Virus record (IMG/VR): IMGVR_UViG_3300020171_000068
Span: 1-41,192 of that record
Source of the DNA: a virus
DNA length: 41,192 nt
Reading direction: 5' to 3' (one strand)
The position numbers and the translations under genes are program-made. A model generated the notes under the pieces. The model saw only the letters and a program-made list of their open reading frames with translations, did no database searches and was not told the DNA's origin. Positions within the stretch are counted from its first letter, which is position 1, and each line of letters starts with the position of its first letter. Below are positions 17,551 to 36,353 of this stretch, in pieces.

Positions 17551-17563
17551 CTTATTTTTATTA

Positions 17564-17854: not shown

Positions 17855-17860
17855 AAAAGT

Positions 17861-18520: not shown

Positions 18521-18529
18521 ATATTTATT

Positions 18530-18901: not shown

Positions 18902-18906
18902 AGTGG

Positions 18907-19305
18907 TTAGTTATTTAATAAATCTTTATTTTCATAGATGTTGCCGATGATTTCAAAATAATTATTTATACTTGCCATTCCAAAGTTTTCATAACTTGGT
19001 TTTAATTCAAAGCTACCACATTCAAATTCAACTACATCAAATTGATATTTTCCACTTCCACCTTCTTGTCCACAAAATGTTTTTACGATATCCCCTTCGT
19101 AAATTTCTTTGCCATTCTTGTCTTTTAAGTTAGTGAATTGCATAAGTTCAAATTGACTTTCATCTCCAACATTTTCAGCATTTTCTCCAGCTCTTACAAT
19201 AAATCCTCCTAAATTAAGAAACTCAATAGTCATTCCTTCTGTGTATTCATCAAACATTATTTTTCTATTTTTATCCCAAGCTCTAAATTTTATTTCTCTG
19301 TTCAT
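18907..19305 (-). CDS. yopX: YopX family protein
   Basis: A 132-aa protein with the YopX-family signature: the N-terminal REIKFRAWDKNRKIMF, a central LMQFTNLKDKNGKEIYEGDIVK, and a C-terminal FEIIGNIYEN. The family is widespread in phages; the function is not known, although an OB- or SH3-like nucleic-acid-associated fold has been described for it. It lies in the middle of the early operon. Confidence 0.9.
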   Translation of the reverse strand: MNREIKFRAWDKNRKIMFDEYTEGMTIEFLNLGGFIVRAGENAENVGDESQFELMQFTNLKDKNGKEIYEGDIVKTFCGQEGGSGKYQFDVVEFECGSFELKPSYENFGMASINNYFEIIGNIYENKDLLNN

Positions 19306-19310
19306 ATTCT

Positions 19311-19583
19311 TTATGTTACTTTTTTAACTTCATCTTTAACCCATCTATTTCCAAAACATAAATACTGCATTAATCTCCAAAACCAATTAGGAACTTTATT
19401 CTTTGGGGGTCGCCACGATAATCCTTCCCCTCCATTAAATAAACGACATTGCCAATCTGAACATTCTGGAATACTTATTATCCCATATCTACTATTTTTA
19501 TCTGTTCCTTCTACCGTCTTCCCAAACTTCTTCTCAAACTCCTCCTGTGCTTGGTCTAATATTTGTTGTCCAGTTTTGTTCAT
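19311..19583 (-). CDS. Hypothetical 90-aa protein
   Basis: An N-terminal helix (GQQILDQAQEEFEKKFG) is followed by a Trp/Cys-rich part (CSDWQCRLF and PNWFWRLMQYLCFGNRWV). The latter may be membrane-interacting but is not a clean transmembrane span. No family recognised. Confidence 0.55.
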   Translation of the reverse strand: MNKTGQQILDQAQEEFEKKFGKTVEGTDKNSRYGIISIPECSDWQCRLFNGGEGLSWRPPKNKVPNWFWRLMQYLCFGNRWVKDEVKKVT

Positions 19584-19584
19584 A

Positions 19585-20010
19585 TTATTTTAATTCTATA
19601 TTAAGTTTCTCTTTGGCTTTATCTAAAATTTCTTGGCGACAATTATTATGTCCCTCAATCCAACCTAATTCTTGTCCTGCTTCAAAATGATTACTATCAC
19701 TTTTCTGCCATTTATGTTCTTTCGGCAAAACTGCCTCAATTGTTTCCTTGCGACATTTTTTTAATCTTTCGTTAAACCCAGCAATATCATATTCGCAAGC
19801 ACAACAATAACCATCTTCTGTGTCGTGAGTTTCAGAGATAGTGGTGCGGATTACTTCCATAAACTCTGGTAATGTAAAGACATCTTCCGAGCTACCCCGA
19901 TTCGTTTCCCACATTTCTTTTATTTGCTTTTCCCAGTTTTCTTTACAAATGTGTTCGCCGTTTGCGGTTATTGTTTTTCCACATTCATTACAAAAGTATT
20001 CTTGTTTCAT
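19585..20010 (-). CDS. Hypothetical protein with N-terminal zinc finger
   Basis: A 141-aa protein with an N-terminal FCNECGKTITANGEHIC (C-x2-C ... H-x-C) zinc-finger-like segment and a second Cys cluster (YCCACEYD) near residues 68-75. The C-terminal half has a GWIEGHNNCRQEILDKAKEKL helix often seen in phage early proteins. Could bind nucleic acid or a host protein. Confidence 0.6.
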   Translation of the reverse strand: MKQEYFCNECGKTITANGEHICKENWEKQIKEMWETNRGSSEDVFTLPEFMEVIRTTISETHDTEDGYCCACEYDIAGFNERLKKCRKETIEAVLPKEHKWQKSDSNHFEAGQELGWIEGHNNCRQEILDKAKEKLNIELK

Positions 20011-22463: not shown

Positions 22464-22706
22464 TTATTCTTCATTATCTTCGTTAATTAACTCGCTTCTT
22501 AAGTGGTCTTCCGTCATCTCCTCGCTCACAGGGATTTGTTTTGCCCTGTCCTGTCCGTAAAAATAATCTTTTAATAATCCACTAACTTCTTCCATTCGCA
22601 TTTTAACATCTGTTAATGTTCTTATACTTTCTGCCGTTTCCTGAATTGCTACATCTAATTTCGTAAAGTCAATTCCCTCTTTGTGTTCCTCATTTTGTTG
22701 GTTCAT
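22464..22706 (-). CDS. Hypothetical acidic 80-aa protein
   Basis: Helical and acidic, with Gln/Glu-rich termini and a central LDVAIQETAESIRTLTDVK helix. No motif. It starts with the usual leader, preceded by a 42-aa gene. Confidence 0.55.
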   Translation of the reverse strand: MNQQNEEHKEGIDFTKLDVAIQETAESIRTLTDVKMRMEEVSGLLKDYFYGQDRAKQIPVSEEMTEDHLRSELINEDNEE

Positions 22707-22716
22707 ATTTTTTATT

Positions 22717-22845
22717 TTACTTATTTATTTGTTCTAAAATTTTAATTATTGGTTTTAATTTTTCTTTAATAATAATTAATCGGTTTCTGTCCCGTCTTTT
22801 TAATTCCTCTAACACCCTTATTGTTCTTTCCTTTTTATTTCTCAT
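22717..22845 (-). CDS. Basic 42-aa microprotein, probably leaderless
   Basis: A 42-aa highly charged helix with many Lys, Arg, Ile and Leu residues (RVLEELKRRDRNR). The promoter just upstream (22852-22879) places transcription start at or very near its ATG, so the mRNA would be leaderless. Possibly a nucleic-acid-binding peptide. Confidence 0.55.
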   Translation of the reverse strand: MRNKKERTIRVLEELKRRDRNRLIIIKEKLKPIIKILEQINK

Positions 22846-22851
22846 ATTATT

Positions 22852-22879
22852 ATATTAACATATCCAACAACCTTGTCAA
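22852..22879 (-). promoter_or_regulatory. Sigma70-type promoter, minus strand
   Basis: TTGACA (22879-22874, perfect) and TAATAT (22857-22852) with a 16-base spacer on the minus strand; TATAAT (22854-22849) at 19 bases is an alternative. Only about six bases separate the -10 from the ATG at 22845. It gives a second entry point for the HNH, RecB, SSB and methyltransferase part of the early operon. Confidence 0.6.
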
Positions 22880-22894
22880 ACACTTTTTAATGAC

Positions 22895-22903
22895 TTATAC
22901 ACA
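22895..22903 (+). other. DnaA-box-like nonamer
   Basis: TTATACACA matches the relaxed DnaA box TTWTNCACA. It lies in the 77-base gap that also holds the promoter. One isolated copy is weak evidence for a role in replication. Confidence 0.2.
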
Positions 22904-22922
22904 GCCTTGTTTCTTCGCTAAA

Positions 22923-23132
22923 TTAAGCCATCTTTAGCCCTTCCGTGTTATTTAAAAGATTTTGCCAATAAAAACATTCCGATTCTGCCATACTCATATC
23001 CCCTCCCGTCCAAACCATATAATCAACTTTTTTCTTGGCTTCTTTGATTTTGTTTTCTATAAAAGATTTATCGTAAAAAATTATAACTCCTGTTGCCGAA
23101 TTTATGTTGCCGATGATTTTGATTTTTTTCAT
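22923..23132 (-). CDS. Hypothetical 69-aa protein
   Basis: An N-terminal beta segment (KKIKIIGNINSATGVIIF) and then a helix of 30 residues. The GGDMSMAESECFYW stretch has no known match. It overlaps the gp37/gp68-like gene by ATGA and ends the first transcription unit before the promoter at 22.87 kb. Confidence 0.55.
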   Translation of the reverse strand: MKKIKIIGNINSATGVIIFYDKSFIENKIKEAKKKVDYMVWTGGDMSMAESECFYWQNLLNNTEGLKMA

Positions 23133-23761
23133 ATATTTAATTTAATATATTCTTTAATATTATTTTTATAAAATATGTTTCTATGTTTTATACTTTTTAT
23201 CCATTCCTGTTTTGGTTTTATTGCCCCTGTTCCTGACATAGCCCCGACTATTACTAAATTAAATTCTGGTAAACATTTTATAACACCTTTATCTATTTCG
23301 CCAAGCAAAGGTTCAAAAGATATAAATTTATAATTATCACCGGACATTTTTAGATAACGAGATTTATTCCACTGTTCGGTTTTTGATTCTGTCCCATCTA
23401 TCGTTATACCCAACCAACAATTTTTAGGGAAAATAAATTCTAAATATCTTTTCGGATTTTTGGTTAGAAATTGAAAGGTGTGTTGCGGATTTTGTCCGAC
23501 AACGATTAAAATATTTTCAATAATACTTTTTTCCACCCAATCGCCGAATAAATCAGCCATAGAACAAACAAATATCTTGCTCGGTTTTTTGGGCATTTTA
23601 TCATTCAACCTGTCGTAATAGAATTTTGGCTTTGTCCAATCGGGTATCCATTTAAATCGGTCATTTAATCTTTTGGCATAACAATAAGAGCAATTATTTT
23701 TACATCCGACAATCGGATTCCAAGTGTAATTTGTCCACTCAATTTTAGTTTTGTTTATCAT
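23129..23761 (-). CDS. DUF5131 (phage Gp37/Gp68-like) radical-SAM-type protein
   Basis: A 210-aa protein with the family's N-terminal IEWTNYTWNPIVGC and Cys motif C20-x3-C24-x2-C27 (CKNNCSYCYA), the layout of a radical-SAM [4Fe-4S] site. Further family segments are KIFVCSMADLFGDWV, HTFQFLTKNPKRY, and ISFEPLLGEI. The reaction is unknown; family members occur in many phages and may modify nucleic acid or a small molecule. It overlaps both neighbours by four bases. Confidence 0.85.
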   Translation of the reverse strand: MINKTKIEWTNYTWNPIVGCKNNCSYCYAKRLNDRFKWIPDWTKPKFYYDRLNDKMPKKPSKIFVCSMADLFGDWVEKSIIENILIVVGQNPQHTFQFLTKNPKRYLEFIFPKNCWLGITIDGTESKTEQWNKSRYLKMSGDNYKFISFEPLLGEIDKGVIKCLPEFNLVIVGAMSGTGAIKPKQEWIKSIKHRNIFYKNNIKEYIKLNI

Positions 23762-25152
23762 ATTTCTTGCTCAAATTTTTTAATCTCGTCTTCGTTAAAC
23801 CTTTTGACTCCTTCTGGAATGTCGCCAAATTTTGAATATACCCCGCTATACCGATAAAAGAAATATCCCTCTGCCGTGGCCGTTGGGCCGTGTCTATTTT
23901 TCTCAACCCTGATTTCAATAGGCGAAACTGGTTTATTCTCGTCATATAATCCCACTTGATTTTTAACCTTTTTAATTTTAATAGTTATGCTTGATGTTGA
24001 TTCAATATTTCCCGAACCTTTTAATCCGGCTCCGGCTCCCATTCCTTTCTCGCTTTCATTGTTAATCTGCGACAAAAGAACAATCGTGATGTTCAATTCT
24101 TCGGCTAATTTGAATAAATCACCGACAGATTCATTAATCCTTTCATATTCTTTATTATATTTATCAGACCGAATATTCTGGAGATAATCAATCGCCACGA
24201 CTTTAACTCCCCTCGTCGCCACGTCTTTACGGATTAACGCTTTTATCTTCTCTATTTCAAAATGCGTAGTGTGTATTTCAAGTGGAAGATCAACCATACT
24301 GTCAATTTCTTCTTTTATTTCTTTAACCAACGCCGGATCGTCTTTAACCCACGTTTCTTTTTCAAAATCCCAATAGATGCCTTTTATAACTCTTGTAGAA
24401 GACATATTGAACCTTAACCCGACCAAGCGGGCGAATAAGTCTTCTTGGTTCATTTCAAGACTAAAGAACGAAACAGGCACATTTTGCTCCAATACTTTTT
24501 CAACCATATTCAACGCCATAAACGACTTGCCTGTGTTTGACCAACCGGCGACAATCCATAAATGACCACCCCTGAATCCGTCAATCAGATAATTAATCTT
24601 ATCAAAACCGCAATCATATCCGAGCAAGTATTGTCCTTTGGCGTATTTCTCTTTGTATTCTTCCTGTATCTTGTTTATCTTGCCAATAATCCCTCTTGGC
24701 GAGTCGTCTTGTGTTTTGAATGTGTTTATCGCAAATATGCTATTCTGGGCTTTAGAGATGACATCGTTTATATCAATCTTCTCATCATAGGCGGTCTTTT
24801 CACTTTCTCTTAGAGCGTCGAGCATTTGCCGTCTCAATGAGCAATCTTTGACTATCTTGGCGTATTCCTCGATATGAAGCGCAGAAGGAACACAGTTGAT
24901 TAGACTGACCAGATAAGAGTTGGACACGCCTTTCAATTCGTTTTTAATCGTGATAAGGTCAATCGGCGAGCGAGCATTATGCAATTTTAGCATAGTTGAG
25001 TAGATGTGCTGGTGTTCGGCATTGTAGAAGTCTTTGGGGTCTATGGTATCGGCTATTTTGAGCAGGGAGTCGGAGTCAATTAGAATAGAGCCGAGTAATG
25101 ACTTTTCGACTTCTATGTTTTGCGGCAGGAGTTTTTCTATTAAATTTTCCAT
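23758..25152 (-). CDS. dnaB: Replicative DNA helicase, DnaB family
   Basis: A 464-aa hexameric-helicase protein. The N-terminal domain (residues 10-110) includes EKSLLGSILID and FYNAEHQHIY, typical of DnaB. The RecA-like domain has Walker A GWSNTGKS (203-210), SFFSLEM (H1a), Walker B AIDYLQNI (320-327), LLSQINNESEKG (H4) and an arginine-finger region EIRVEKNRHG (413-422). It unwinds the phage fork 5'-3' and probably is loaded by the organiser protein encoded just upstream. No phage polymerase or primase is seen, so host enzymes are presumably recruited. Confidence 0.95.
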   Translation of the reverse strand: MENLIEKLLPQNIEVEKSLLGSILIDSDSLLKIADTIDPKDFYNAEHQHIYSTMLKLHNARSPIDLITIKNELKGVSNSYLVSLINCVPSALHIEEYAKIVKDCSLRRQMLDALRESEKTAYDEKIDINDVISKAQNSIFAINTFKTQDDSPRGIIGKINKIQEEYKEKYAKGQYLLGYDCGFDKINYLIDGFRGGHLWIVAGWSNTGKSFMALNMVEKVLEQNVPVSFFSLEMNQEDLFARLVGLRFNMSSTRVIKGIYWDFEKETWVKDDPALVKEIKEEIDSMVDLPLEIHTTHFEIEKIKALIRKDVATRGVKVVAIDYLQNIRSDKYNKEYERINESVGDLFKLAEELNITIVLLSQINNESEKGMGAGAGLKGSGNIESTSSITIKIKKVKNQVGLYDENKPVSPIEIRVEKNRHGPTATAEGYFFYRYSGVYSKFGDIPEGVKRFNEDEIKKFEQEI

Positions 25153-25162
25153 AAGATTTTTA

Positions 25163-25894
25163 TTATATTCTCTTTTCGTTAGTATTAGGTTTAGATTGAA
25201 CAGGTTTATTATTATTCTCCCAAGTTCTCACGCTCGCACGCCACGACTTCATTTTGTTCCGCCCGATCATCCACCCCTTAGATTCGTAGAAGTCTATAAA
25301 TCGCTGGGCATCCACATCGTTTTTCCGCTCGTGGCAATAGGCACTAACCTCGTTGAGCGTGGGCGGGATAGATTTCGCCCCCCGTAGTTCTTCTTTTTCG
25401 GAAGATTCTTTTAAGGGAGGAAGCGAACTTGTTTCGCTCTTCTTCTCATTATTATCCTTCTTATCATTCTTGTATGTGGTTAGTGGTTGGTTAGTGGTTG
25501 TTTGGTGGTTGTTTAGATTGCTGGTTAGTTTGCTGGTTAGTTTAGGTGCGTCTTTTTGATATTCTTCCCAATTTAATACTATTATAATAGAAAACTTGTT
25601 GGTTGGTTTGATGTCTATTCTGTTGGTTGATTTTAGGTATGCTATCGCAGTTTTCCAGTTTTGTGCGGATATAGGCAATTCTTTTATGGCTTTATTTCTA
25701 CCCGTAATGAATTGACCTGATTTTATTTCAAGATCATTGCCATTAAAGGGGAAATTAGTATCTTCGTGGTTGGCTTTTAATAAACACCAAGACCAAACCA
25801 TCCATATAATAGGGTTTTTCCAAACTGAACTATCTATTGATTTCCGATAAAATCTAACCCAACCTTGTTTTCGCAAGTCGTTCATATAATTCAT
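25163..25894 (-). CDS. Replisome-organiser / replication initiation protein
   Basis: A 243-aa protein in the position just upstream of dnaB in the operon. The N-terminal 110 residues (RKQGWVRFYRKSIDSSVWKN, then SGQFITGRNKAIKELPIS) match the winged-helix start of phage replication proteins that bind origin DNA. A Thr/Asn/Gln-rich linker follows (residues 118-140). The C-terminus has DAQRFIDFYESKGWMIGRNK and WRASVRTWE, common in DnaD-like or gp-O-like proteins. The linker is encoded by TGGTT repeats that may themselves be the origin. Start at 25894; a later ATG at 25885 is possible. Confidence 0.8.
   Translation of the reverse strand: MNYMNDLRKQGWVRFYRKSIDSSVWKNPIIWMVWSWCLLKANHEDTNFPFNGNDLEIKSGQFITGRNKAIKELPISAQNWKTAIAYLKSTNRIDIKPTNKFSIIIVLNWEEYQKDAPKLTSKLTSNLNNHQTTTNQPLTTYKNDKKDNNEKKSETSSLPPLKESSEKEELRGAKSIPPTLNEVSAYCHERKNDVDAQRFIDFYESKGWMIGRNKMKSWRASVRTWENNNKPVQSKPNTNEKRI
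25477..25538 (-). repeat. Iteron-like TGGTT repeats inside the replication gene
   Basis: Read on the plus strand, seven TGGTT copies occur in 62 bases (starting 25477, 25484, 25488, 25495, 25506, 25522, 25534), several as TGGTTAG or TGGTTG. They lie in the linker-coding part of the replisome-organiser gene, where lambda-like and many Gram-positive phages keep their origin. Candidate replication origin. Confidence 0.45.
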
Positions 25895-26045
25895 TTAAGT
25901 TTAATTCTAAATAAGAGGGGTGCGTTATTTTTGTTTCTAAAAGTTCTATTATATAAGCAATTTCTTCTAAGCTTAGATCAAAATTGCCGCGACCGTAGAT
26001 ACTGAAATGTTGCGTTAAAATTTCTGCTCTTTCTTTGTATGTCAT
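25854..26045 (-). CDS. Hypothetical 63-aa protein
   Basis: Started at the ATG at 26045, which has the AATAAAT leader; the frame is open to 26081 but that would overlap the gene upstream. Helical, with TYKERAEILTQHF and LSLEEIAYIIELLE. It overlaps the replisome-organiser start by 41 bases. Possibly a small regulator. Confidence 0.55.
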   Translation of the reverse strand: MTYKERAEILTQHFSIYGRGNFDLSLEEIAYIIELLETKITHPSYLELNLNELYERLAKTRLG

Positions 26046-26064
26046 ATTTATTTTTATTATTATA

Positions 26065-26262
26065 TTAAATTCTGTTGCCATTAATACACTTTGCTAAATT
26101 AAGAAATGCTTTATTTATACAGATTTCTTTTTGTTTGATTTCTTCTTCTGTGGCCTCTCTTTTAAATTCTGAACATCTTGGACACCACCATTCATTATAA
26201 CCATTCATACTCCAATGTTCACCGCACAAACATTTATTTTTTTTGGTTTGAATATATGTCAT
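26065..26262 (-). CDS. Zinc-ribbon microprotein
   Basis: A 65-aa protein with CLCGEH and WWCPRCSEF, four Cys suited to one zinc ribbon, and a helical C-terminus (EEEIKQKEICINKAF). It is the first gene after the structured leader below. Possible DNA- or RNA-polymerase-binding role by analogy only. Confidence 0.6.
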   Translation of the reverse strand: MTYIQTKKNKCLCGEHWSMNGYNEWWCPRCSEFKREATEEEIKQKEICINKAFLNLAKCINGNRI

Positions 26263-26315
26263 AAGATTCTTAACTTAAAAAAGAAGACCAAGTAAAAGCA
26301 ACGGCAAAGATGCAA
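26259..26315 (-). CDS. Possible 18-aa leader peptide with the only clear SD
   Basis: On the minus strand AAAGGAG (26330-26324) is followed after 8 bases by a TTG codon (26315). The frame codes for 18 residues, rich in Phe, Leu and Cys, and its TGA overlaps the ATG of the zinc-ribbon gene (ATGA). A leader peptide or a chance frame; no other gene here has such an SD. Confidence 0.25.
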   Translation of the reverse strand: MHLCRCFYLVFFFKLRIL

Positions 26316-26367
26316 AACTTGATCTCCTTTTGTAAATTAATAATTTTAAATTGTTCGCCGTTGCTTT
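26295..26367 (-). promoter_or_regulatory. Structured 5' leader (11-bp inverted repeat)
   Basis: AAAGCAACGGC (26295-26305) and its exact complement GCCGTTGCTTT (26357-26367) frame a 51-base loop that holds the AAAGGAGAT motif and AT-rich inverted repeats. It lies within the first 110 bases of the transcript from the promoter at 26381-26408. A regulatory leader or an RNA-stability element is likely. Confidence 0.5.
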
Positions 26368-26380
26368 ATACATATATTTT

Positions 26381-26408
26381 ATTCTAAACCTTATATTTTA
26401 ATTGTCAA
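26381..26408 (-). promoter_or_regulatory. Strong sigma70-type promoter for the leftward early operon
   Basis: TTGACA (26408-26403, perfect), 16-base spacer, TAGAAT (26386-26381, five of six). The expected start near 26374 leaves a leader of about 112 bases before the zinc-ribbon gene. The -10 surroundings (TTTAGAATAA) are shared with the promoter at 26933. Confidence 0.65.
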
Positions 26409-26428
26409 TTAATTAGAGGTGGACAACT

Positions 26429-26506
26429 TTATTTATCACAACCAATGGCATACCCCACGATCCCGCCGCCGACAATCATTAAACCGATTGCAATAAATTC
26501 TAACAT
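26429..26506 (-). CDS. 25-aa single-helix membrane peptide
   Basis: A short frame with one glycine-rich hydrophobic helix (IAIGLMIVGGGIVGYAIG). Its ATG is four bases after the stop of the 63-aa gene, with an ATTT spacer, fitting the operon. It ends before the downstream promoter. Confidence 0.4.
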   Translation of the reverse strand: MLEFIAIGLMIVGGGIVGYAIGCDK

Positions 26507-26510
26507 AAAT

Positions 26511-26702
26511 TTAAATTATTATTTTAATCTTAACAATTTTGGTTTTAAACTTGTTTGCCTTTTTTATTTTAATCGCTTCTTCTCTGCTTTCAACAATCGC
26601 CCACAAAGAAAAACTAATATCGTTTTTTTGGATATCATTAACACAAGCGATTGGTATATCAAATTTTTCCACCGCTACAAGGGCAAATGCTTTTAATTCC
26701 AT
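26511..26702 (-). CDS. Hypothetical 63-aa early protein
   Basis: Alpha-beta pattern (MELKAFALVAVEKFDIPIACV) with a basic C-terminus (KFKTKIVKIKIII). Overlaps the sigma-region-4-like gene by 10 bases. The plus-strand frame over the same DNA (26539-26826) lacks a start context and is dismissed. Confidence 0.5.
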   Translation of the reverse strand: MELKAFALVAVEKFDIPIACVNDIQKNDISFSLWAIVESREEAIKIKKANKFKTKIVKIKIII

Positions 26703-26878
26703 AAATTTATTTCTTTTATTTTGTTTAACGGTATATTTAATTCGGTTGTTATATTTTCATCGCTCATCATTATATCATCCATTAATCCCCATTTCATTTC
26801 CAAAACTTTCCTTTCTAAATCACTAACGCGGTTGTGGTTAAGGTAGTTTATAATTTTAATTTGCTCCGGTGTTTTCAT
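26693..26878 (-). CDS. Sigma70 region-4-like helix-turn-helix protein
   Basis: A 61-aa protein aligning with sigma70 region 4.2: LERKVLEMKWGLMDD corresponds to the family's REREVL-LRFGL, and ENITTELNIPLNKIKEIN to EEIA-LGIS-ERVRQIE, i.e. the -35-recognising helix-turn-helix. It is the first gene of the leftward early arm and lies opposite the plus-strand operon that ends with a sigma region-2-like protein. It may bind promoter DNA or the RNA polymerase flap, as a phage regulator or as half of a split sigma factor. Confidence 0.55.
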   Translation of the reverse strand: MKTPEQIKIINYLNHNRVSDLERKVLEMKWGLMDDIMMSDENITTELNIPLNKIKEINLWN

Positions 26879-26932
26879 ATTTTTATTTTACTTTTTTAAT
26901 CTCCTCATTGAGCACTCTTGGTTGGTAAAATT

Positions 26933-26960
26933 ATTCTAAAACATCTAAAAAAGAATACAA
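26933..26960 (-). promoter_or_regulatory. Probable promoter for the first leftward early gene
   Basis: TTGTAT (26960-26955, weak) and TAGAAT (26938-26933) with a 16-base spacer. The -10 context TTTAGAATAA is the same as in the promoter at 26381. Leader about 48 bases, including AGGAGAT at 26905-26899 and a 6-codon frame. Confidence 0.4.
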
Positions 26961-26993
26961 GGGGGGGCTGTGGAAAAAATGGGGATAACTTAT

Positions 26994-27022
26994 TTGCTTG
27001 TTTATTTATTAAGTGGTATAAT
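26994..27022 (+). promoter_or_regulatory. Sigma70-type promoter for the rightward early operon
   Basis: TTGCTT (26994-26999), 17-base spacer, TATAAT (27017-27022, perfect). Seven bases separate the -10 from the ATG at 27030, so the transcript should begin at or next to the start codon (leaderless). Confidence 0.65.
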
Positions 27023-27029
27023 AATTATT

Positions 27030-27365
27030 ATGAAAAAACAAACAAAGCCTTATATTACATTGAGGGATAGAGATTGGAAAGGTAAAGATTGGTTCACAAG
27101 TTATCGCAGTTATAAAAATATTCGGCGATTAACAGACGAAGAAGCAAAACCATTTTTAGAAGATGGAACTATTGAAGAAGTAAAATTAAAAAAAGAACCA
27201 ACGATTGGAGTGGTTGGTAATAAAAACGGCACAATGGTTTGTCTTAAATGTGGAAGTCAAAGAGGGTTTTTCGTTTACAAGATGCATAGGGGAAAACAAA
27301 GCGGTTGGTATAATTTATATACTTGCGCCGATTGTGGAGAAAGAGAAAAGATGTTTCTTTATTAA
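27030..27365 (+). CDS. Zinc-ribbon protein, early rightward gene
   Basis: A 111-aa protein when started at this ATG; an earlier in-frame ATG at 26970 lies upstream of the promoter -10 and is rejected. N-terminal basic and aromatic stretch (RDRDWKGKDWFTSYRSYKN), then a C-terminal zinc ribbon: MVCLKCGSQRG and YTCADCGERE (two CxxC pairs). It could bind DNA or RNA polymerase. First gene of the rightward early arm. Confidence 0.65.
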   Translation: MKKQTKPYITLRDRDWKGKDWFTSYRSYKNIRRLTDEEAKPFLEDGTIEEVKLKKEPTIGVVGNKNGTMVCLKCGSQRGFFVYKMHRGKQSGWYNLYTCADCGEREKMFLY

Positions 27366-27378
27366 ATAAATAAAATAT

Positions 27379-27615
27379 ATGAAAAAACAATTTCGTGGGT
27401 TATCAAAAAAAGAAATAGACAAGCAACAGAGTTTACCGCGCGAATTCATTATTGAAAACTGGAAACCCACCGAATTGAAAGCAGTAATTAAATCTCTTAA
27501 TAAGCAGATTTTAGTTTTGATGAAAAAAGATGCGGAAGAGGTTAAGCAAGGAGAAATTAATTTGCTTATTATGGAAAAATCTTTTTATCAGGCGGAAATG
27601 AAGAAACGAAAATAA
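27379..27615 (+). CDS. Hypothetical 78-aa helical protein
   Basis: A basic helical protein (KPTELKAVIKSLNKQILVLMKK) with no Cys or membrane segment. Small gap of AT-rich leader before and 2 bases after. No family recognised. Confidence 0.55.
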   Translation: MKKQFRGLSKKEIDKQQSLPREFIIENWKPTELKAVIKSLNKQILVLMKKDAEEVKQGEINLLIMEKSFYQAEMKKRK

Positions 27616-27617
27616 TT

Positions 27618-27803
27618 ATGGAAGAAGTTATAATAAAAGAAAGAGATTTTGGCGGTGACGGAGTATTGCGGTTCGTGTGCCGGCACTGCGAAAAAACTTT
27701 TAAATACAAAAGAGGACGGATTAAAAATCCTTCGCCAAGAGATATTGACAAATGGATGGCAGTTGCCGTTTGCCCGTATTGCCACAAGAAGATTAGAGAT
27801 TAG
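27618..27803 (+). CDS. Zinc-finger microprotein
   Basis: A 61-aa protein with two CxxC pairs (FVCRHCEKTF and AVCPYCHKK) that should form one zinc ribbon or rubredoxin-like knuckle. Surface basic residues suggest nucleic-acid contact. It overlaps no other gene and follows the 78-aa gene by 2 bases. Confidence 0.65.
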   Translation: MEEVIIKERDFGGDGVLRFVCRHCEKTFKYKRGRIKNPSPRDIDKWMAVAVCPYCHKKIRD

Positions 27804-27851
27804 ATTATTCATTAAAAGATTTTTTATGTAATAATGTTAAAAAAATAACAC

Positions 27852-27910
27852 GGAATTGCGAGCTTCTGCCACCTATCGTGGCAATTCCAAAATCAAACAA
27901 TAGGTGTGGC
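27852..27910 (+). promoter_or_regulatory. Three competing hairpins over the sigma-like start codon
   Basis: GGAATTGC (27852-27859) pairs with GCAATTCC (27881-27888). TGCCAC (27867-27872) pairs with GTGGCA (27878-27883), which contains the GTG start. CACCTAT (27870-27876) pairs with ATAGGTG (27900-27906). They cannot all form together, so translation of the sigma-like gene may be controlled by RNA switching. Confidence 0.4.
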
Positions 27911-28291
27911 GACAAAAAGGACGATAAGGTCCTCAATTTAGAAGTAGAATTAAAAAAACTTGAAAAAGACATTTGGCAACAATCACGGCATTATAATATA
28001 AATGGATTTGACGCAGACGATCTTTATCAAGAATTTCAAATTTCTATATGGAAAGCACTTCCAAAATATAGAGGCGATAATGGAGCAACTATAAGGGGTT
28101 TTGCGTACGAAGTAATAAGGATAAGGGTTCTTGAATTGGCAAGAACGACATATACTAAAAAAAGAAGAGCGAACAATGGGACGATTAGGTTAGACGAATT
28201 GGAAGATAACGATATTGATATAGAAGATAAACAATGGCCGGAACGATTTGGTGAGAATTTCTCAAAAGATTTTAAGGATAATTGGTTATAA
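27878..28291 (+). CDS. Sigma70-like factor (region 2 only)
   Basis: A 137-aa protein with sigma region 2 at residues 43-92: GFDADDLYQEFQISIWKALP, then GATIRGFAYEVIRIRVLELAR, where the Tyr-rich helix would bind core polymerase and the -10. Region 4 is absent; the C-terminus is short and acidic (ELEDNDIDIEDK). No other Met occurs in the frame, so the GTG at 27878 is the likely start. Possible late-transcription sigma, perhaps together with the region-4-like protein at 26693. Followed by a terminator. Confidence 0.7.
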   Translation: MAIPKSNNRCGDKKDDKVLNLEVELKKLEKDIWQQSRHYNINGFDADDLYQEFQISIWKALPKYRGDNGATIRGFAYEVIRIRVLELARTTYTKKRRANNGTIRLDELEDNDIDIEDKQWPERFGENFSKDFKDNWL

Positions 28292-28314
28292 AAGTATGCC
28301 CGCAATTAGGCTAT

Positions 28315-28339
28315 AAATGGCGATAATAAGCCATTTTTT
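28315..28339 (+). terminator. Rho-independent terminator after the sigma-like gene
   Basis: AAATGGC (28315-28321), an 8-base loop, GCCATTT (28330-28336) and further T residues to 28339. It ends the rightward early operon 24 bases after the sigma-like stop codon. Confidence 0.7.
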
Positions 28340-28610
28340 GTGTTTAGGGAAAGTTTTGGCATCATCTATAGTAAGCGGATTAAGGTTTGATCGACCTTTC
28401 CGCATCATCGCCCACGACTATGCTTCGGCTCGTCTGGGTATCAAAATAGGTGGTCAATCTTAAATGATGACCCCAAAAAGCAGCAGAGAATAGACCGCCT
28501 TTAATTTCAACTAATGGCGACCGTAATGCGCACAATAAACTTGTTTAAGTTTTTGAAATAGGCGAAACAAAAATTCGTCTATTTTCTGCGTTTAACAACA
28601 GAATAAAATA
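28340..28610 (+). ncRNA. Highly structured non-coding region before a homing endonuclease
   Basis: No reading frame of note. Nested stem GCGGA-AAGGT/ACCTT-TCCGC (28375-28403, 7-base loop); ACGA/TCGT with a GC-TTCG-GC tetraloop (28414-28433) closed by CCC/GGG; an 11-bp stem with one mismatch at 28556-28584 right before the endonuclease ATG. The octamer GCATCATC occurs on both sides of the first stem. This could be a self-splicing intron piece, a small RNA or a packaging site; group I core boxes are not evident. Confidence 0.4.
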
Positions 28611-29123
28611 ATGAATAAATATCGACCCAACGGGAAATACAGTTACAGTACTGTTAATTATGATCTTTTTCGTGCATTTGATGATGGGAATATAAAACAC
28701 TGTAGTAATGTTTCTGATAGAACAAGGGAAAAAATGAGTATGGCAATGATGGGAAAAGGTAAGGGAATATCAAAATCAAACGAATCAAAGAAAAAGAATA
28801 GTGAATGGCACATCAATCATCCCAACAGAAAATTCAAGGATACTTCAATCGAATTAAAAGTAGAAGAAGAATTAAAAAGGCGAGGGATTAACTATCAAAA
28901 GCAAATTCCTTTATGTAATATAGCGGTTGTTGATTTCTACTTGCCCGAATATAGAATTGTAATACAAGCAGATGGAGATTATTGGCATAATTTACTTGGT
29001 GCCAAAGAAAGAGATGAAAAACAGGACAGAGTTTTAATGTTTAATGGCTTTAATGTATATCGTTTTTGGGAGCACGAAATAAACGAATCAATCGAAAAGT
29101 GTATAGATAAATTAAATATTTGA
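28611..29123 (+). CDS. Vsr-like (EDxHD) homing endonuclease
   Basis: A 170-aa protein. The N-terminal half is basic with a NUMOD-like repeat (DRTREKMSMAMMGKG). The C-terminal nuclease has E81 in TSIELKVEEEL, D108 in AVVDFYLPEYR, and DGDYWHN (D121, D123, H126), then FWEHEI, the EDxHD arrangement of the Vsr/DUF559-related homing enzymes found in phage introns and as free-standing genes. It is surrounded on both sides by structured non-coding DNA, just upstream of the terminase. Stop is TGA. Confidence 0.8.
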   Translation: MNKYRPNGKYSYSTVNYDLFRAFDDGNIKHCSNVSDRTREKMSMAMMGKGKGISKSNESKKKNSEWHINHPNRKFKDTSIELKVEEELKRRGINYQKQIPLCNIAVVDFYLPEYRIVIQADGDYWHNLLGAKERDEKQDRVLMFNGFNVYRFWEHEINESIEKCIDKLNI

Positions 29124-29439
29124 AACAATAAGACATTTCAGAAAACATACAAAATAATCAAATAAGTGAAAAGAGTTATTTTAAAACTACCTTGCCGATT
29201 GATTCAAGGGCGAGATTTAATAACTTCTCCGGTAGTTATTATAAGATGCGATAAATCGCAATAATCGCAGATACGAATACTTAGTATTCACGGGCAACCG
29301 AATTGGGGGTGGCAAGTTCTATTCCAAACGCATTGAGTTTCGGCTCAAAGAATCAACTTGCGGGGACTTGCCGCATAATATAAACAAGCAGAGAAATATA
29401 GGAGTTGTCGCTCTCCATAATAAAAGCGACACCAATTTT
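29124..29439 (+). other. Structured non-coding region upstream of terminase
   Basis: 316 bases without a convincing gene. Inverted repeats: AACTACC/GGTAGTT (29185-29191 with 29231-29237), GCGAT-AA-ATCGC (29248-29259), GAATAC-TTA-GTATTC (29275-29289), TGCGG/CCGCA (29359-29375), GTCGCT/AGCGAC (29407-29430). The density of hairpins next to terminase suggests a packaging site (cos or pac), or the 3' part of an intron-like element shared with 28340-28610. Confidence 0.4.
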
Positions 29440-29850
29440 ATGAATGATATAAAAGAACAAAAAGTTGATTGGATACAAGAAATGATTATAAGGGAGGCTA
29501 CTCCCAAATCTTTACGGGGCGGGAGTATAGCCGAATTTTGTGTTAAATATGGCATAGGAGAAAGCACTTATTATTATCAATCCTCCAAGCCCGAAAATCA
29601 AAAGGAAATACTTAAAACTTGCCTAAACTCTGTGAAGAAATCAGCGCCGGAAGTATTAGAGAAATTAAAAGAAAAGGCTATAGCAGGCAATGATAAATCA
29701 ATAGAGATGTTCCTTGATTATGTTCTTGAATTAAGTAAGAACCTTGACATAAAGACTGATGGAGATAAGTTGGGATTAAGTTTAGTAAGTATGGAACAGA
29801 TTGATGAACTACTCAAACGAAGAATTAAAACAGATATCCCAAGCGGGTAA
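29440..29850 (+). CDS. terS: Terminase small subunit
   Basis: A 136-aa protein started at the ATG at 29440 in the common ATTTT-ATG context; an earlier TTG at 29368 would cross hairpins. The N-terminal half has a helix-turn-helix (GSIAEFCVKYGIGESTYYYQ) for packaging-site DNA; the C-terminal half is coiled coil ending in MEQIDELLKRRI, for oligomerisation and contact with the large subunit. It overlaps the large subunit gene by 47 bases. Confidence 0.75.
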   Translation: MNDIKEQKVDWIQEMIIREATPKSLRGGSIAEFCVKYGIGESTYYYQSSKPENQKEILKTCLNSVKKSAPEVLEKLKEKAIAGNDKSIEMFLDYVLELSKNLDIKTDGDKLGLSLVSMEQIDELLKRRIKTDIPSG

Positions 29851-31240
29851 ACATAGCTTGATAGACTTTTCAATACTCACTAATCCTAAGTATAAACCTA
29901 ATTGGCATCACGAGGTAACAGCGAAAGAACTTGAAAAAGCGGAAAAAGGCACAGCAGACTGGAAGATATTATTGCTTATGTGTCCGCCACGATCAGGAAA
30001 GTCCGAAGAAGTAAGTATTAACTTCCCTGCGTGGTCTTTAGGAAGAAGTCAGGACAAAGAGATAATCACGGCTTCTTATTCATCTGAACTGGCGTTAGAC
30101 TTCGGAAGTAAAACAAGGGATTTAATATCAAGCGAAGAATATAAATTGATATTCGGAGATGTTTCTTTGAAAAGCGACGAACAATCAAAGGCTAAATGGA
30201 AAACCAACAAAGGAGGAAGTTATATTTCTGTTGGTATAGGTGGGGCGATAACAGGAAGGGGGGCGGATTTACTCGTTATTGATGACCCGATAAAAAATAG
30301 AGAAGAAGCGAACAGCAAGTTAATCAGAGACAAACACTGGAACTGGTTTACTTCGACGGCATATACAAGGCTTCAACCAAACGGAAAGGTGGTTATCGTT
30401 CTTACAAGGTGGCATTTAGATGATTTAGCCGGACGAATAATGAAGAACCCAGAATTTGCATCAATGTTAAAGATTATAAAGTTCCCTGCTATAGCCATAG
30501 AAGATGAACAATATCGCAAAAAAGGAGAAGTTTTATGGCCGACCAGGTATAGTTTAGAAGAGGTTGAAAGTATAAAACGAGGAATAGGCGTATATGATTT
30601 TTCAAGTTTATATCAACAATCTCCCATATTGTCAGAAAATCAGGAATTCAAACAATCGTGGTTTAGATACAGGGATTATGAGGAAGTTTCAAGATTAAAC
30701 ACAAGGAATTTTTTAACAATAGACACGGCGGTTTCAGAGAAAGACTCTGCGGATTACACGGGTATAGTTTCTAATTTTGTTGATATTCAGAATAAGTGGA
30801 ACATTAAGATTAAAAGGGTGAGGATAAACCCTAAAGAATTGATAGATTTGTTGTTTGCAATGAATGATACCGACAACTACGAGAAGATAGGGATCGAGGA
30901 GACAGTATATCTTCAAGCCATTAAGCCGTTTCTTGATGATGAGATGAGAAAAAGGAATAAGTTTTTAACCATAATTCCATTAAAACATCATCAGACAGCA
31001 AAGGAGATAAGGATAAGAGGACTTGTGCCAAGATATGAAACTCATTCAATATTTCATATCAATGGCGAATGCGATGAACTTGAAGAAGAAGAATTGTGTT
31101 TTCCTTCTGGTTCTCACGACGATGTATTAGATAGTTTAGCTTATCAATTACAGATAGCCGAAGCGCCTATGGGAGAAGATGAAATGGTCAGGCTTATTGA
31201 AAACAGGCAAAGAAATCTAATTAATGAATTCGGCGTATGA
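29804..31240 (+). CDS. terL: Terminase large subunit
   Basis: A 478-aa packaging motor. The ATPase domain has Walker A CPPRSGKSE (about residues 60-68), Walker B DLLVIDDP (155-162) and the coupling motif VLTRWHLDD. The RNase H-like nuclease has LTIDTAVSEKDSADYTG (first Asp), GIEETVY (second acidic) and PSGSHDDVLDSLAY (third Asp cluster). Starts at the ATG directly after TTG in the 3' end of terS, so they are translationally coupled. Its TGA overlaps the next ATG. Confidence 0.95.
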   Translation: MNYSNEELKQISQAGKHSLIDFSILTNPKYKPNWHHEVTAKELEKAEKGTADWKILLLMCPPRSGKSEEVSINFPAWSLGRSQDKEIITASYSSELALDFGSKTRDLISSEEYKLIFGDVSLKSDEQSKAKWKTNKGGSYISVGIGGAITGRGADLLVIDDPIKNREEANSKLIRDKHWNWFTSTAYTRLQPNGKVVIVLTRWHLDDLAGRIMKNPEFASMLKIIKFPAIAIEDEQYRKKGEVLWPTRYSLEEVESIKRGIGVYDFSSLYQQSPILSENQEFKQSWFRYRDYEEVSRLNTRNFLTIDTAVSEKDSADYTGIVSNFVDIQNKWNIKIKRVRINPKELIDLLFAMNDTDNYEKIGIEETVYLQAIKPFLDDEMRKRNKFLTIIPLKHHQTAKEIRIRGLVPRYETHSIFHINGECDELEEEELCFPSGSHDDVLDSLAYQLQIAEAPMGEDEMVRLIENRQRNLINEFGV

Positions 31241-31389
31241 ACACAAAAGAGCAACTGCTAAATGAAATGAGCAAGGACTTCGGCAGAATACTTGATGATT
31301 ACCGAAGTCCTCACGAGATAGAAAAGAAACGATTAAAAGAGTTAAGGGAAAATAAAATAAAAGAAATTAAGAATCAACTAACAATATGA
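31237..31389 (+). CDS. Small helical protein between terminase and portal
   Basis: A 50-aa frame coupled by ATGA at both ends (with terL and with the portal). It is almost all charged helix (ELREN, KRLKELRE, KIKEIKNQL) and could be a coiled coil. A small gene at this place is common in phages; no function is visible. Confidence 0.65.
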   Translation: MNTKEQLLNEMSKDFGRILDDYRSPHEIEKKRLKELRENKIKEIKNQLTI

Positions 31390-33110
31390 GAGTATTTGAT
31401 ATATTCGAGGATGAGATAGATTCGTATCTAAACGACAGCGTGGAGATTTCTTCAGGTTATTGGTATAACCAAGCGAAACTTATTAAGAGGATTTATTTAT
31501 ACGCTAATTGTATTTATCCCAATGGCAAACTTGATTCGCAGGGAAGATACAGGTATTTTTTTGATATTGCTTCTCCTCGCATAGACAGCGAAGTTAAGAA
31601 TGTGGATTTTGACACTAAAAATGTTGTTTTGGCAACTGACTCCAACAAAGATTATAAACCTCTATTTATCGCCAATAACTTCTTACGGGACTATATGAGA
31701 GAAAGTGGCCAATCCACCAAAATTGATGAGATAGTTGAGGAAGGAAGCGGTTGGGGTAATGTCGTTTTAAAGAAAATCAAGGGTGGTTATGAGAGGGTGG
31801 ATTTAAAGAATTTCTATGTCATCAACCAAACAGCCGAGAGTTTGGACGAAAGCCCCGTTATTGAGAGACACATCTTAACTCAATCGAATTTAAGAGCCAA
31901 GCAAGGTATTTGGAATAATGTCGAGAAAGTCATCAAGGAATGCGGTAATAAGGAATTCTCTGTTACTGCCAAATCAAACAAAGAAGACAAGACTACGCCT
32001 TATTATGAGATATACGAACGCAACGGGGAAATCAGCCAGCAAGACCTATATGAAGCGCAAGATAAGAAAGGCGGGGATAAGGATACTTATGTCTTGGCCA
32101 AGATTATCTGCGCCGGACTTGCCAAGAACTCCAAAGACGCCAAGTATATTTTATTCGCTGAAGAATTAAAAGACGATATGTCTTCCGTGTACAAAGAATA
32201 TCACAGGGGAAGATATAATGGCCGATGGTGGAGGGTTGGTATTCACGAAATGTTATTTGATATTACCACTCGTTCGAATGAAATCGGCAATCAAATAGCC
32301 AGAGGGCTTGAATGGGCATCTAAAACTATATTCCGAAGTGCCGATAAACTCTTAACGAGTAATGTCCTTACCGACCTTAACAACGGAGATATAATCAAAA
32401 GCACGGACATCTCGCAGGTTGAGATAAGGATGCAGGGCTTAGACCAGTTAATGGCGGATTGGAACAGGTTAATGACATTGGCTGACAAGCTTTGTAATTC
32501 TTACGAGGTGGTACTCGGCGAAAATATGCCGAGTGGTACATCGATGGGGCTTGGGAATATGCTTAATCAGAACGCTAACAAGTTATTCGATTTTATCAGA
32601 AAAAAATTATCTCAAATACTTCAGGACGCTTTACAAGATTGGGTTTTGCCCGACATATTAAAAAAGATTAAAGTCGCTAAGTATGTGAAGATTACAGGTG
32701 ATTCTAATCTTGGTGAATATCATAAAATGCTGGTTGATGGGTGGTATTTAAAAAATTTAATCGCTTTCGGCCCGCATACGGAAGATGTGGCAAACCTGTT
32801 AAAAGAAAAGAAACTTAAAGAGTTATCGGATATTGAGTTTATTAAGATAGAAAAAGACTTCTGGGAAGACTTTGAACCGAGAGTTGTTGTGGTTATCAGT
32901 GGCGAGAATGTAAATAAGACGAAAGAACTGACTGACTTATCGACTTTTATACAACTCGAGAGCGACCCCGTGAGAAGGTCTGCCCTAGTCGAAATGGCAA
33001 TGGCTAAGCAGGGCATCGATATTTCTTCTTTACCAAAGACCGAACAACCACCTATACAACCTTCTATGCCTACTAAAGGTCAACCTATAACTAATCAATT
33101 AACGCAATAA
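31386..33110 (+). CDS. Portal protein
   Basis: A 574-aa protein in the portal position directly after terL. It has the helical wing and stem pattern of podovirus-type portals: GYWYNQAKLIKRIYLYAN, then DIASPRIDSEVKNVDFDT, and a long C-terminal helical part with a Pro/Gln-rich tail (QPPIQPSMPTKG). The dodecameric ring would sit at one capsid vertex and thread DNA. Assignment rests on order and length as well as the pattern; no single diagnostic motif. Confidence 0.8.
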   Translation: MRVFDIFEDEIDSYLNDSVEISSGYWYNQAKLIKRIYLYANCIYPNGKLDSQGRYRYFFDIASPRIDSEVKNVDFDTKNVVLATDSNKDYKPLFIANNFLRDYMRESGQSTKIDEIVEEGSGWGNVVLKKIKGGYERVDLKNFYVINQTAESLDESPVIERHILTQSNLRAKQGIWNNVEKVIKECGNKEFSVTAKSNKEDKTTPYYEIYERNGEISQQDLYEAQDKKGGDKDTYVLAKIICAGLAKNSKDAKYILFAEELKDDMSSVYKEYHRGRYNGRWWRVGIHEMLFDITTRSNEIGNQIARGLEWASKTIFRSADKLLTSNVLTDLNNGDIIKSTDISQVEIRMQGLDQLMADWNRLMTLADKLCNSYEVVLGENMPSGTSMGLGNMLNQNANKLFDFIRKKLSQILQDALQDWVLPDILKKIKVAKYVKITGDSNLGEYHKMLVDGWYLKNLIAFGPHTEDVANLLKEKKLKELSDIEFIKIEKDFWEDFEPRVVVVISGENVNKTKELTDLSTFIQLESDPVRRSALVEMAMAKQGIDISSLPKTEQPPIQPSMPTKGQPITNQLTQ

Positions 33111-33157
33111 AATGATGGTGGAACACGGAGTCAAATTAAGAAAGTAAATTTTAATAA

Positions 33158-33412
33158 ATGTTTAACTTTAAAAAAATGAAGAAAGTAAAAATGACTCTTC
33201 AAGAATTAGAAGAGATTAAAAAAAGAAACGAGATGATTAACGAACATATCTTGGTAATTAATCTTTTACAAGGTTCGTTTGCAGGATATAGAAAAGCAAT
33301 AGAAGAGAAGTATAAATTAGACGCTACTCATAATTGGAATATTGATTTATTGACGGGTGAGTTTAAAGATGCGGGCTTAATTGAACAACCCAAAGAAGAG
33401 ATTAAGAAATAA
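33158..33412 (+). CDS. Hypothetical 84-aa protein in head module
   Basis: Charged helical protein (TLQELEEIKKRNEMINEHIL) with a C-terminal WNIDLLTGEFKD segment of the kind found after portal genes in some phages. Start at ATG 33158 with an AT-rich leader; a later Met at 33176 is possible. Confidence 0.5.
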   Translation: MFNFKKMKKVKMTLQELEEIKKRNEMINEHILVINLLQGSFAGYRKAIEEKYKLDATHNWNIDLLTGEFKDAGLIEQPKEEIKK

Positions 33413-33414
33413 CT

Positions 33415-33675
33415 ATGTTGGACTACGAGAAATTAAAAGAATCATTACAAACAGAAGCTTTTAAAGATTTGCGCAAGTTTTTGGTTTATCATCTGCTTGA
33501 GATGGAAAGCGTATATAGCGTAAAAGAATTTTCAAAAGCGGTTGATCAGGCGATTGAGATGAAAGGACAGAAGAGGGCTTGCGAGATATTAAGGTCTGTA
33601 TTGGAAAAGTTAATCGGAGAATCTGAAATTAAAGAAATCAAAGATGAAAAGACTAAAGAAGATTATGGATTGTAA
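33415..33675 (+). CDS. Hypothetical 86-aa protein in head module
   Basis: A helical protein (LKESLQTEAFKDLRKFLVYHLLEM, then AIEMKGQKRACEILRSVLEKL) resembling small proteins between portal and scaffold. Two bases separate it from the preceding gene. Could regulate assembly. Confidence 0.5.
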   Translation: MLDYEKLKESLQTEAFKDLRKFLVYHLLEMESVYSVKEFSKAVDQAIEMKGQKRACEILRSVLEKLIGESEIKEIKDEKTKEDYGL

Positions 33676-33695
33676 TTTATTTACATATTGGCTCT

Positions 33696-33717
33696 GTTGC
33701 CAGCCTTTAAAGGCAAC
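33696..33717 (+). promoter_or_regulatory. Hairpin with 12-bp palindrome between head genes
   Basis: GTTGCC (33696-33701) pairs with GGCAAC (33712-33717); within it GCCTTTAAAGGC (33703-33714) is a perfect palindrome. No T run follows, so it may be an RNA-processing or attenuation site, not a simple terminator. Confidence 0.4.
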
Positions 33718-33743
33718 CTAAATGTGAACCATAACACTACACT

Positions 33744-34313
33744 ATGGAAGAAGAACAAAATGAGACCATCGACTCTTTAAATGATGAAAATGATGGCACT
33801 ACTGCCATCGCCGAAGAAGTCTCTGACGCGGACACTATATCCGAAGAAGATGACGCTTCTGTCCTTGTAGAAAAGAATAAACGGCTTTTTATGAGGGCTA
33901 AAAAGGCTGAAGCTGACTTGAAGGCATTAAAGCAAAAGCCAGTGTTAGTCGAAAAGAAACCGTCTATATCAATCGATGAGGAAACTATCCTTAGGAAGAT
34001 TGATGAGAGATTAGAACAGAGAGATGTAGATTCCCTTTCTTTAAGCGATGAACTTAAAAAGGAAATCAAAAGTTATGCGAAATTAAATGGCGTGTCCGTC
34101 AAAGAGGCTTCTAATTCTTCTTATATCCAATTCAGACAGAAAGAAGAATCAGAGAAGGCAAGAATTGACGATGCTTCAATTAATTCTACGCATAAGACAA
34201 TGGCTAATCGCAATTTAGACGAAGTGAATCCTGATAAGGATTTTGATATGTCCACTAAAGATGGCCGAGAGGCTTATCACAAGTGGCACGAAGAGTGGAA
34301 GAAAACCCACTAA
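33744..34313 (+). CDS. Capsid scaffolding protein
   Basis: A 189-aa protein with an acidic N-terminus (residues 1-45), a central coiled coil (NKRLFMRAKKAEADLKALKQ) and a basic C-terminal end (HKWHEEWKKTH) for contact with coat. This charge layout and its place between the portal and coat genes are typical of scaffolds of tailed phages. No protease gene is nearby. Confidence 0.75.
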   Translation: MEEEQNETIDSLNDENDGTTAIAEEVSDADTISEEDDASVLVEKNKRLFMRAKKAEADLKALKQKPVLVEKKPSISIDEETILRKIDERLEQRDVDSLSLSDELKKEIKSYAKLNGVSVKEASNSSYIQFRQKEESEKARIDDASINSTHKTMANRNLDEVNPDKDFDMSTKDGREAYHKWHEEWKKTH

Positions 34314-34375
34314 TTCCAGGGTCGAGTCTATACAGCAATTAGTCATTCAAATTAATTGAAATAAATTTTAATTTT

Positions 34376-35575
34376 ATGGCTAATTCACTTACTGCTTTTA
34401 ATCCGACGCATTGGGCGCCGACAATGCAGGAGACATTCTTCAAAGAGAATGTAGCTCTTGCTATATGTAGCACTGAACTCCGCGATGTTTTAATCGACGG
34501 AACTCGTGTTTACAAACCTTATCGTAGTTCTTTAAAAGACCAAGACTATACGAAAGGAACCGCCATCACTTCATTTAATGATTTGACTGGCACCGAAGAA
34601 TATCTTGATGTTGATACTGTGCGTATTGTCCCGTTTTATGTGGATGATTTGGATAAATTACAAAATAAATGGGATGTTCTGCCTATCTTCGCTCAAGATG
34701 CTCAAAAGGTCTTAAACAACAGAATTGATCAAAAGGTATTCTCGAAATACTCTGACGCTTATTCTTACGTGTCAGCTCAAGACTTGGGTAGTACTGGCAC
34801 CGGAGCTTATGCTATCGATACCAGCAATATTGCCAACCTCTTTACTGTGGCTGGCAGACAGTTGGATAAATACAATCGTGGCTTAACTCAAAGATTTGCC
34901 ATTGTTGGTCCGAGATTGAAAGAAGTCCTTAAATTAAGCGTTGGCGCTAGAGAAACTGCTTTCGGCGACCAAGTTGAAGAGAATGGTTTAATCGGAAGAC
35001 GATATGGATTTGAAATCTATCAATCCAATAACATTCCTTTTGCCGCCGCTATAACAACTTCTTCGATTCCTGTTGCTGCCGAAACATTTACTGTTGATGG
35101 TGTTGTATTTACTTGGGTGGCTACTGGAACTAATTGTACATCCGCTGGTAAAGTTGACATCGGCGCATCTGAAGACGCGGCTTATGCTAACTTGGTACTG
35201 GCTATCAATGGTTCAACCGCTGGCACTACTTCCACTTACTATGATGTTTCCGCTGATGACAGGGAAGCGTTACACGCTGGTGGGATCGTCGCTTCTTATA
35301 CCGCCCACGCGTTAGTAATCTCAGGTTACGGCGATGTGGTTATATCTGAAACAACTACCAACTGCGCTGTTACCACCAATGTTCAATATCCTATATTCGG
35401 CGTTAAGGGTGCGATTGATTTCGTTATCCAAAAATCTCCGAATGTTGAATTTAGAGTTTGCGAGAACTTACTTGGTCGAAAAGTATACGCTTGGACAACT
35501 TATGGAGCAAAGACTTTCTTAAAAAAGAAAAAATCTCTTGTTTACGCTAAAGTTGATACAAGTTCTTGGTTGTAA
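34376..35575 (+). CDS. Major capsid protein, HK97-like, with inserted Ig-like domain
   Basis: A 399-aa protein. The N-terminal 220 residues follow the coat pattern (ENVALAICSTELRDVLIDG, then TGTEEYLDVDTVRIVPFYVDDLDK, then GPRLKEVLKL). About residues 230-331 are an extra beta domain of the ETFTVDGVVFTWVATG type that is found in coat proteins of many phages and likely projects from the capsid. The C-terminal part (GVKGAIDFVIQKSPNVEFR) completes the fold. It follows the scaffold and is expected to be the most abundant late product. Confidence 0.9.
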   Translation: MANSLTAFNPTHWAPTMQETFFKENVALAICSTELRDVLIDGTRVYKPYRSSLKDQDYTKGTAITSFNDLTGTEEYLDVDTVRIVPFYVDDLDKLQNKWDVLPIFAQDAQKVLNNRIDQKVFSKYSDAYSYVSAQDLGSTGTGAYAIDTSNIANLFTVAGRQLDKYNRGLTQRFAIVGPRLKEVLKLSVGARETAFGDQVEENGLIGRRYGFEIYQSNNIPFAAAITTSSIPVAAETFTVDGVVFTWVATGTNCTSAGKVDIGASEDAAYANLVLAINGSTAGTTSTYYDVSADDREALHAGGIVASYTAHALVISGYGDVVISETTTNCAVTTNVQYPIFGVKGAIDFVIQKSPNVEFRVCENLLGRKVYAWTTYGAKTFLKKKKSLVYAKVDTSSWL

Positions 35576-35579
35576 TCGG

Positions 35580-36306: not shown

Positions 36307-36353
36307 TGGTAAGTGCGTCTAAATGACGACTCTTAAAAAAATAAGACAAATTT

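Follow-up and report, generated by a model that had tools for sequence, protein, structure and literature searches.

A phage-encoded sigma-70 region 2 protein without region 4 adjoining the late genes of a small phage, and a nearby early protein with weak similarity to region 4

In phage T4, the likeness of gp55 to sigma factors is limited to domain 2, and gp55 together with gp33 has been described as a "split sigma" (PMC2988020). The concept is therefore already known. The T4 gp33 subunit is without sequence similarity to sigma. A second system comes from SPO1, a much larger phage, in which gp33 is the partner of gp34. Late transcription of SPO1 uses the sigma-like gp34 (PMC9429907). No sequence match was found between the SPO1 gp34/gp33 pair and the proteins encoded by the DNA studied here. 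Outside phages, SigO and RsoA are encoded by cellular genes at one locus. A table in one report (PMC10141391) gives this B. subtilis pair as dividing the sigma-2 and sigma-4 functions between two polypeptides.

The window analysed here is the whole 41,192-nucleotide stretch of the viral record IMGVR_UViG_3300020171_000068. This DNA belongs to an uncultivated tailed phage and encodes a region 2 protein (r2) and, on the other strand, a shorter protein with weak similarity to region 4 (r4), among the following features.

26381 to 26408, minus strand: TTGACA-16-TAGAAT, 11/12, the sigma70-like site that promoter scans rank highest for the leftward operon
26693 to 26878, minus strand: r4, 61 aa, residues 17-58 weakly similar to region 4 of RpoD/SigA (NCBIfam, profile, codon usage)
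27030 to 27365, plus strand: zinc-ribbon protein, first gene of the rightward operon (ATG at 27030, frame open from a GTG at 26970)
27379 to 27615, plus strand: 78-aa protein of the r2 operon (open reading frame, codon usage)
27618 to 27803, plus strand: 61-aa zinc-finger protein immediately 5' of r2 (phrog_2834, 8e-7; zf-BED, 3e-6)
27834 to 27887, plus strand: ATG and slippery-looking A7 run with the inverted repeat GGAATTGC...GCAATTCC, overlapping the putative GTG start of r2
27878 to 28291, plus strand: r2, 137-aa region-2-only protein of the sigma-70 family (Pfam, NCBIfam, Foldseek, codon usage)
28315 to 28336, plus strand: terminator-like hairpin right after r2, a 7-pair stem followed by a T run
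28611 to 29123, plus strand: gene for an endonuclease of DUF559/Vsr type, with r2 on one side and the terminase genes on the other (PF04480, 1.4e-11)
29368 to 29850, plus strand: probable terminase small subunit (phrog_24579, 1.8e-4)
29801 to 31240, plus strand: terminase large subunit, first of the structural (late) genes (phrog_38, 6.8e-97)

Judged by its sequence, r2 is certainly a genuine sigma-70 region 2 protein. The Pfam model Sigma70_r2 (PF04542) spans residues 29-89 with an E-value of 1e-8 and 35.2 bits, against a curated (gathering) cut-off of 24; NCBIfam gives TIGR02937 at 9e-10 and a SigH-type model at 3e-7, and PHROG profiles also give a region 2 match. These profile searches confirm the alignment with region 2 proposed in an earlier, sequence-only reading of the locus, which was also correct in placing both open reading frames and in stating that neither protein contains the domain of the other: region 4 is absent from r2 and from all six frames of the window (PF04545 and PF08281, to E=10). 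The core-binding motif DLxQE is present as DLYQE at residues 48-52 and, together with parts of the region 2.3-2.4 block, shows retained identities in an alignment with two SigH-like proteins. The profile match extends into the sigma linker and ends there, the rest of the chain being an acidic/aromatic tail with the hydrophobic and acidic C-terminal residues FSKDFKDNWL. SigH/ECF sigma factors are the closest to r2 in region 2 and the start of the linker, but they have region 4 in the same chain, whereas r2 does not and so falls short of a complete sigma-70/ECF factor. The single-sequence AlphaFold model of r2 is poor (pLDDT 51), and a Foldseek search with this low-confidence model listed 50 matches, almost all of them sigma factors and none with E<=0.001. 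Codon usage is in the phage's own style for both r2 (0.23 bits/codon) and r4 (0.21 bits/codon), on a scale on which pieces of known genes have a mean of 0.22 and the 95th percentile of wrong-frame pieces is 0.03.

The leftward (minus-strand) genes run from 26878 to about 12600 and encode a DnaB-like helicase, a DnaD-like loader, an exonuclease and HNH proteins, while the rightward (plus-strand) genes run from about 27030 through the terminase, portal (named from its place after TerL, which is conserved in related contigs) and capsid genes and across the joined ends to about 12274. The two genes had been placed at the two ends of divergent early operons. The operons are divergent: r4 opens the leftward one, and r2 closes a short rightward one of four genes, after the zinc-ribbon, 78-aa and zinc-finger genes. 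The zinc-ribbon product has CxxC pairs and weak matches to TFIIB/TFIIS-type zinc ribbons (E-values of 0.0045 and 0.019, under the cut-off). The hairpin at 28315 to 28336 is the probable end of the r2 operon, in a region where terminator counts are at chance level. The probable terminase small subunit weakly resembles the products of open reading frames just 5' of TerL in related contigs. Two apparently non-coding stretches, 28292-28610 and 29124-29367, surround the endonuclease gene and are without an Rfam match; they could contain a late promoter or serve in packaging, or be a scar left by a mobile endonuclease. In the replication operon, a DUF5131 (radical-SAM-like) gene lies beside the helicase gene (23129-23761, minus strand).

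This arrangement bears on whether r2 might be the non-functional remnant of a full phage sigma factor that lost its region 4, possibly when the endonuclease gene arrived. We consider such an origin very improbable: the endonuclease gene and the two stretches do lie directly 3' of r2, the profile match breaks off in the linker and the r2 start codon is putative, but the codon usage of r2 is normal and a trace of region 4 occurs in no frame. Loss of region 4 through an insertion 3' of r2 was rejected on this last result of the six-frame search.

The similarity of r4 to region 4 is weak, and its membership is likely but not proven. The five NCBIfam matches of r4 are all to sigma factors, either RpoD/SigA or SigK, and fall in the C-terminal portion that holds region 4; they are a cyanobacterial-type RpoD/SigA (2.9e-4), an RpoD C-terminal model (1.4e-3), SigK (0.016 and 0.020) and another RpoD (0.069), and reversed r4 gave zero NCBIfam matches. 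Control small open reading frames of the window gave spurious NCBIfam matches down to 0.0023, so the noise floor lies less than 10-fold from the r4 score. On a region 4 profile built from 26 sequences, mostly proteobacterial RpoD, r4 scored 8.4 bits, a value reached by 3 of 20,000 shuffles, and ranked fourth among 11,770 open reading frames, with three unrelated ones higher. No Pfam or PHROG model matched r4, PF04545 and PF08281 being silent even at E=10. In an ungapped alignment with SigA, the recognition helix VTRERIRQIE becomes IPLNKIKEIN, so that the -35-reading residues (RExxRQ) are not conserved; these positions, which we take to be R584, E585, R588 and Q589 in E. coli numbering, are L, N, K and E in r4. 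The chain stops three residues past the aligned helix and so lacks the C-terminal end of region 4. The structure model of r4 is poor, with two helices only. With these residues changed and region 4 cut short, r4 is not expected to read a -35 box; supposing that it is a sigma-4 relative, this capacity would have been lost. The best NCBIfam value and the shuffles speak for the earlier alignment of r4 with region 4.2, and the silence of Pfam and the rank on the profile speak against it.

The same results can be read as a chance resemblance, r4 being a small early protein or an unrelated helix-turn-helix protein. We regard this as a serious though minority possibility. It would account for the lack of Pfam and PHROG matches, the three unrelated open reading frames scoring higher on the RpoD profile and the spurious control matches to E=0.002, but it fits poorly with five out of five NCBIfam matches being sigma factors and with the rarity of comparable shuffles. 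A profile search placing r4 in an unrelated helix-turn-helix family would have spoken for it; all NCBIfam matches were sigma factors, while Pfam and PHROG yielded none. Overall, we think it somewhat more probable that r4 is a relative of region 4 that binds the flap than that it is unrelated to sigma.

The sequence-only reading had proposed that the two proteins could form a split sigma that replaces the host factor and switches on the late genes. In a true split sigma, both would sit on the same core enzyme, r2 at the beta-prime clamp and r4 at the beta flap, replacing host sigma at late promoters. The presence, within about 1 kb, of one protein resembling region 2 and another resembling region 4 favors this arrangement, as do the precedents of T4 gp55/gp33 and SigO-RsoA; the weak similarity of r4, its altered -35-reading positions and the location of the genes in divergent operons make it unlikely. 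Since r2 looks ECF/SigH-like and r4 of RpoD/primary type according to NCBIfam, the two are unlikely to have arisen by a simple break of one ancestral gene. Divergent genes of different sigma type also set the locus apart from SigO-RsoA. A mosaic split sigma, with its region 2 of ECF/SigH type and its region 4 of RpoD type encoded divergently and assembled on the host core only after both early operons have been expressed, appears less likely still. What stands of the proposal is a region-2-only sigma beside the late genes, with T4 as precedent; that r4 is the second half of r2 is no more than a possibility, given its weak similarity, changed -35 positions, short region 4.2 and divergent operon, and the lack of relatives carrying the pair.

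We favor, with moderate confidence, a reading of r2 as a late-gene specificity factor that resembles T4 gp55 and has region 2 only. As a phage region-2-only sigma adjoining late genes, r2 is well supported by sequence and position; from there, we infer the following sequence of events: (i) the short early rightward operon would lead to synthesis of r2; (ii) r2 would use its DLxQE helix to bind host RNA polymerase at the clamp helices of beta-prime; (iii) r2 would direct the enzyme to the terminase, head and tail genes, which begin just downstream; and (iv) r4, an early protein from the leftward replication operon and possibly a much-reduced region 4, would at most cap the beta flap tip, in a gp33-like role, without reading a -35 box. 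Being without region 4, r2 would be expected to recognise a -10-type element alone, like T4 gp55. Alternatively, r2 or r4 could be a decoy, or a competitor of host sigma, whose effect is to displace host sigma and shut off host transcription and not to direct late expression. Single domains could still compete for the clamp helices or the flap, and r4 opens the early leftward operon and is without -35-reading residues. Such a role nevertheless seems improbable for the locus, as r2 retains the region 2.3-2.4 block (-10 recognition and melting) and its gene adjoins the late genes.

With r2 as a late specificity factor, the locus would resemble T4 gp55/gp33 in combining a small phage-encoded region-2-only sigma with a separate candidate flap binder, and would differ in that r4, unlike gp33, has some sequence similarity to sigma. 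Activation in T4 requires the phage sliding clamp, and none of the window proteins that were scanned was recognised as a clamp. A T4-type sliding-clamp epitope lies at the C-termini of both T4 subunits, and the r2 ending FSKDFKDNWL is suggestive of one at most. New in this case would be the small phage, without detectable relatives of either protein, and the detectable sigma similarity of r4. Should late transcription be driven by r2, phage sigmas with region 2 only would exist outside the large T4- and SPO1-like phages, in a small phage, and a single docked domain might suffice for late switching. If r4 were proven to be its partner, the pair would add a second, differently composed split sigma and help in asking how little a sigma can consist of.

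A pattern-based search, which reaches mostly close relatives, found no relatives of r2 and r4 in IMG/VR viral contigs, and the same approach found none of r2 in GTDB bacterial contigs. Two weak r2 matches in a phage collection were rejected, as they lie inside full-length SigH-like factors amid bacterial housekeeping-type genes. We gathered 80 contigs with a related terminase and scanned 50 records with Pfam models; region 2 occurred in none of these, and one region 4 exceeded the cut-off, in a 198-aa open frame. Most of the records are fragments, so the absence of region 2 is weak evidence. In one related contig (L053:1325-2545), the terminase large subunit is apparently interrupted by an intein-like insertion.

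The late genes had also been said to lack visible TTGACA/TATAAT promoters. Late-strand intergenic DNA holds 0 sigma70-like sites of at least 10/12 against 0.51 expected, in agreement with the claim, but the contrast with early (leftward) intergenic DNA, where 3 such sites stand against 0.93 expected (P=0.06), is suggestive and not significant. Consensus scans were close to expectation in both 22500-41192 (59 sites against 59.6) and 1-20000 (80 against 74.8), and only one perfect TTGACA-TATAAT pair was found, at 15685-15656 on the minus strand. The site at 26381 to 26408 lies 3' of r4, ahead of the 26262 gene. In a gap of the leftward set (22707-22922, minus strand), TTGACA-16-TAATAT with an extended TG is, by its sequence, a good candidate for an early promoter. 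No word shared in late intergenic DNA clearly beats shuffles (best P=0.05 before correction, over four word lengths). The T4 late promoter motif, TATAAATA, is not enriched, with 9 copies against 6.9 expected, which does not indicate T4-type late promoters; of its three plus-strand copies, two coincide with the start of a late gene or stand ahead of it (5822 and 9995). The Bacteroidota-type promoter TTTG-TAnnTTTG was found zero times.

The start of r2 may involve recoding. The sequence ATG TTA AAA AAA TAA is followed by 6 bases and then by the inverted repeat over the r2 start, a phase and spacing at 27834-27887 that suit -1 frameshifting into r2. The fold of the inverted repeat is not exceptional (z-score of -0.67), and the short upstream extension of r2 is without coding composition on the codon-usage measure. 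A programmed frameshift at the A7 run ahead of r2 is thus uncertain.

An exact 126-base repeat (2-127 = 41067-41192) makes it probable that the record holds an entire genome of about 41,065 bases, circular or circularly permuted; the one-base overhang at the record start may have hidden this repeat from end-repeat detection. A 1048-codon frame crosses the joined ends, from 39097-41066 to about 1178, the open reading frame 63-1178 being merely its 3' part. Rfam and tRNA scans of the window gave nothing. Across the whole window, a Shine-Dalgarno motif precedes almost no gene, and the starts are preceded by A/T-rich stretches such as TAAAATAAATATATG, a pattern pointing to a host whose translation initiation is SD-independent.
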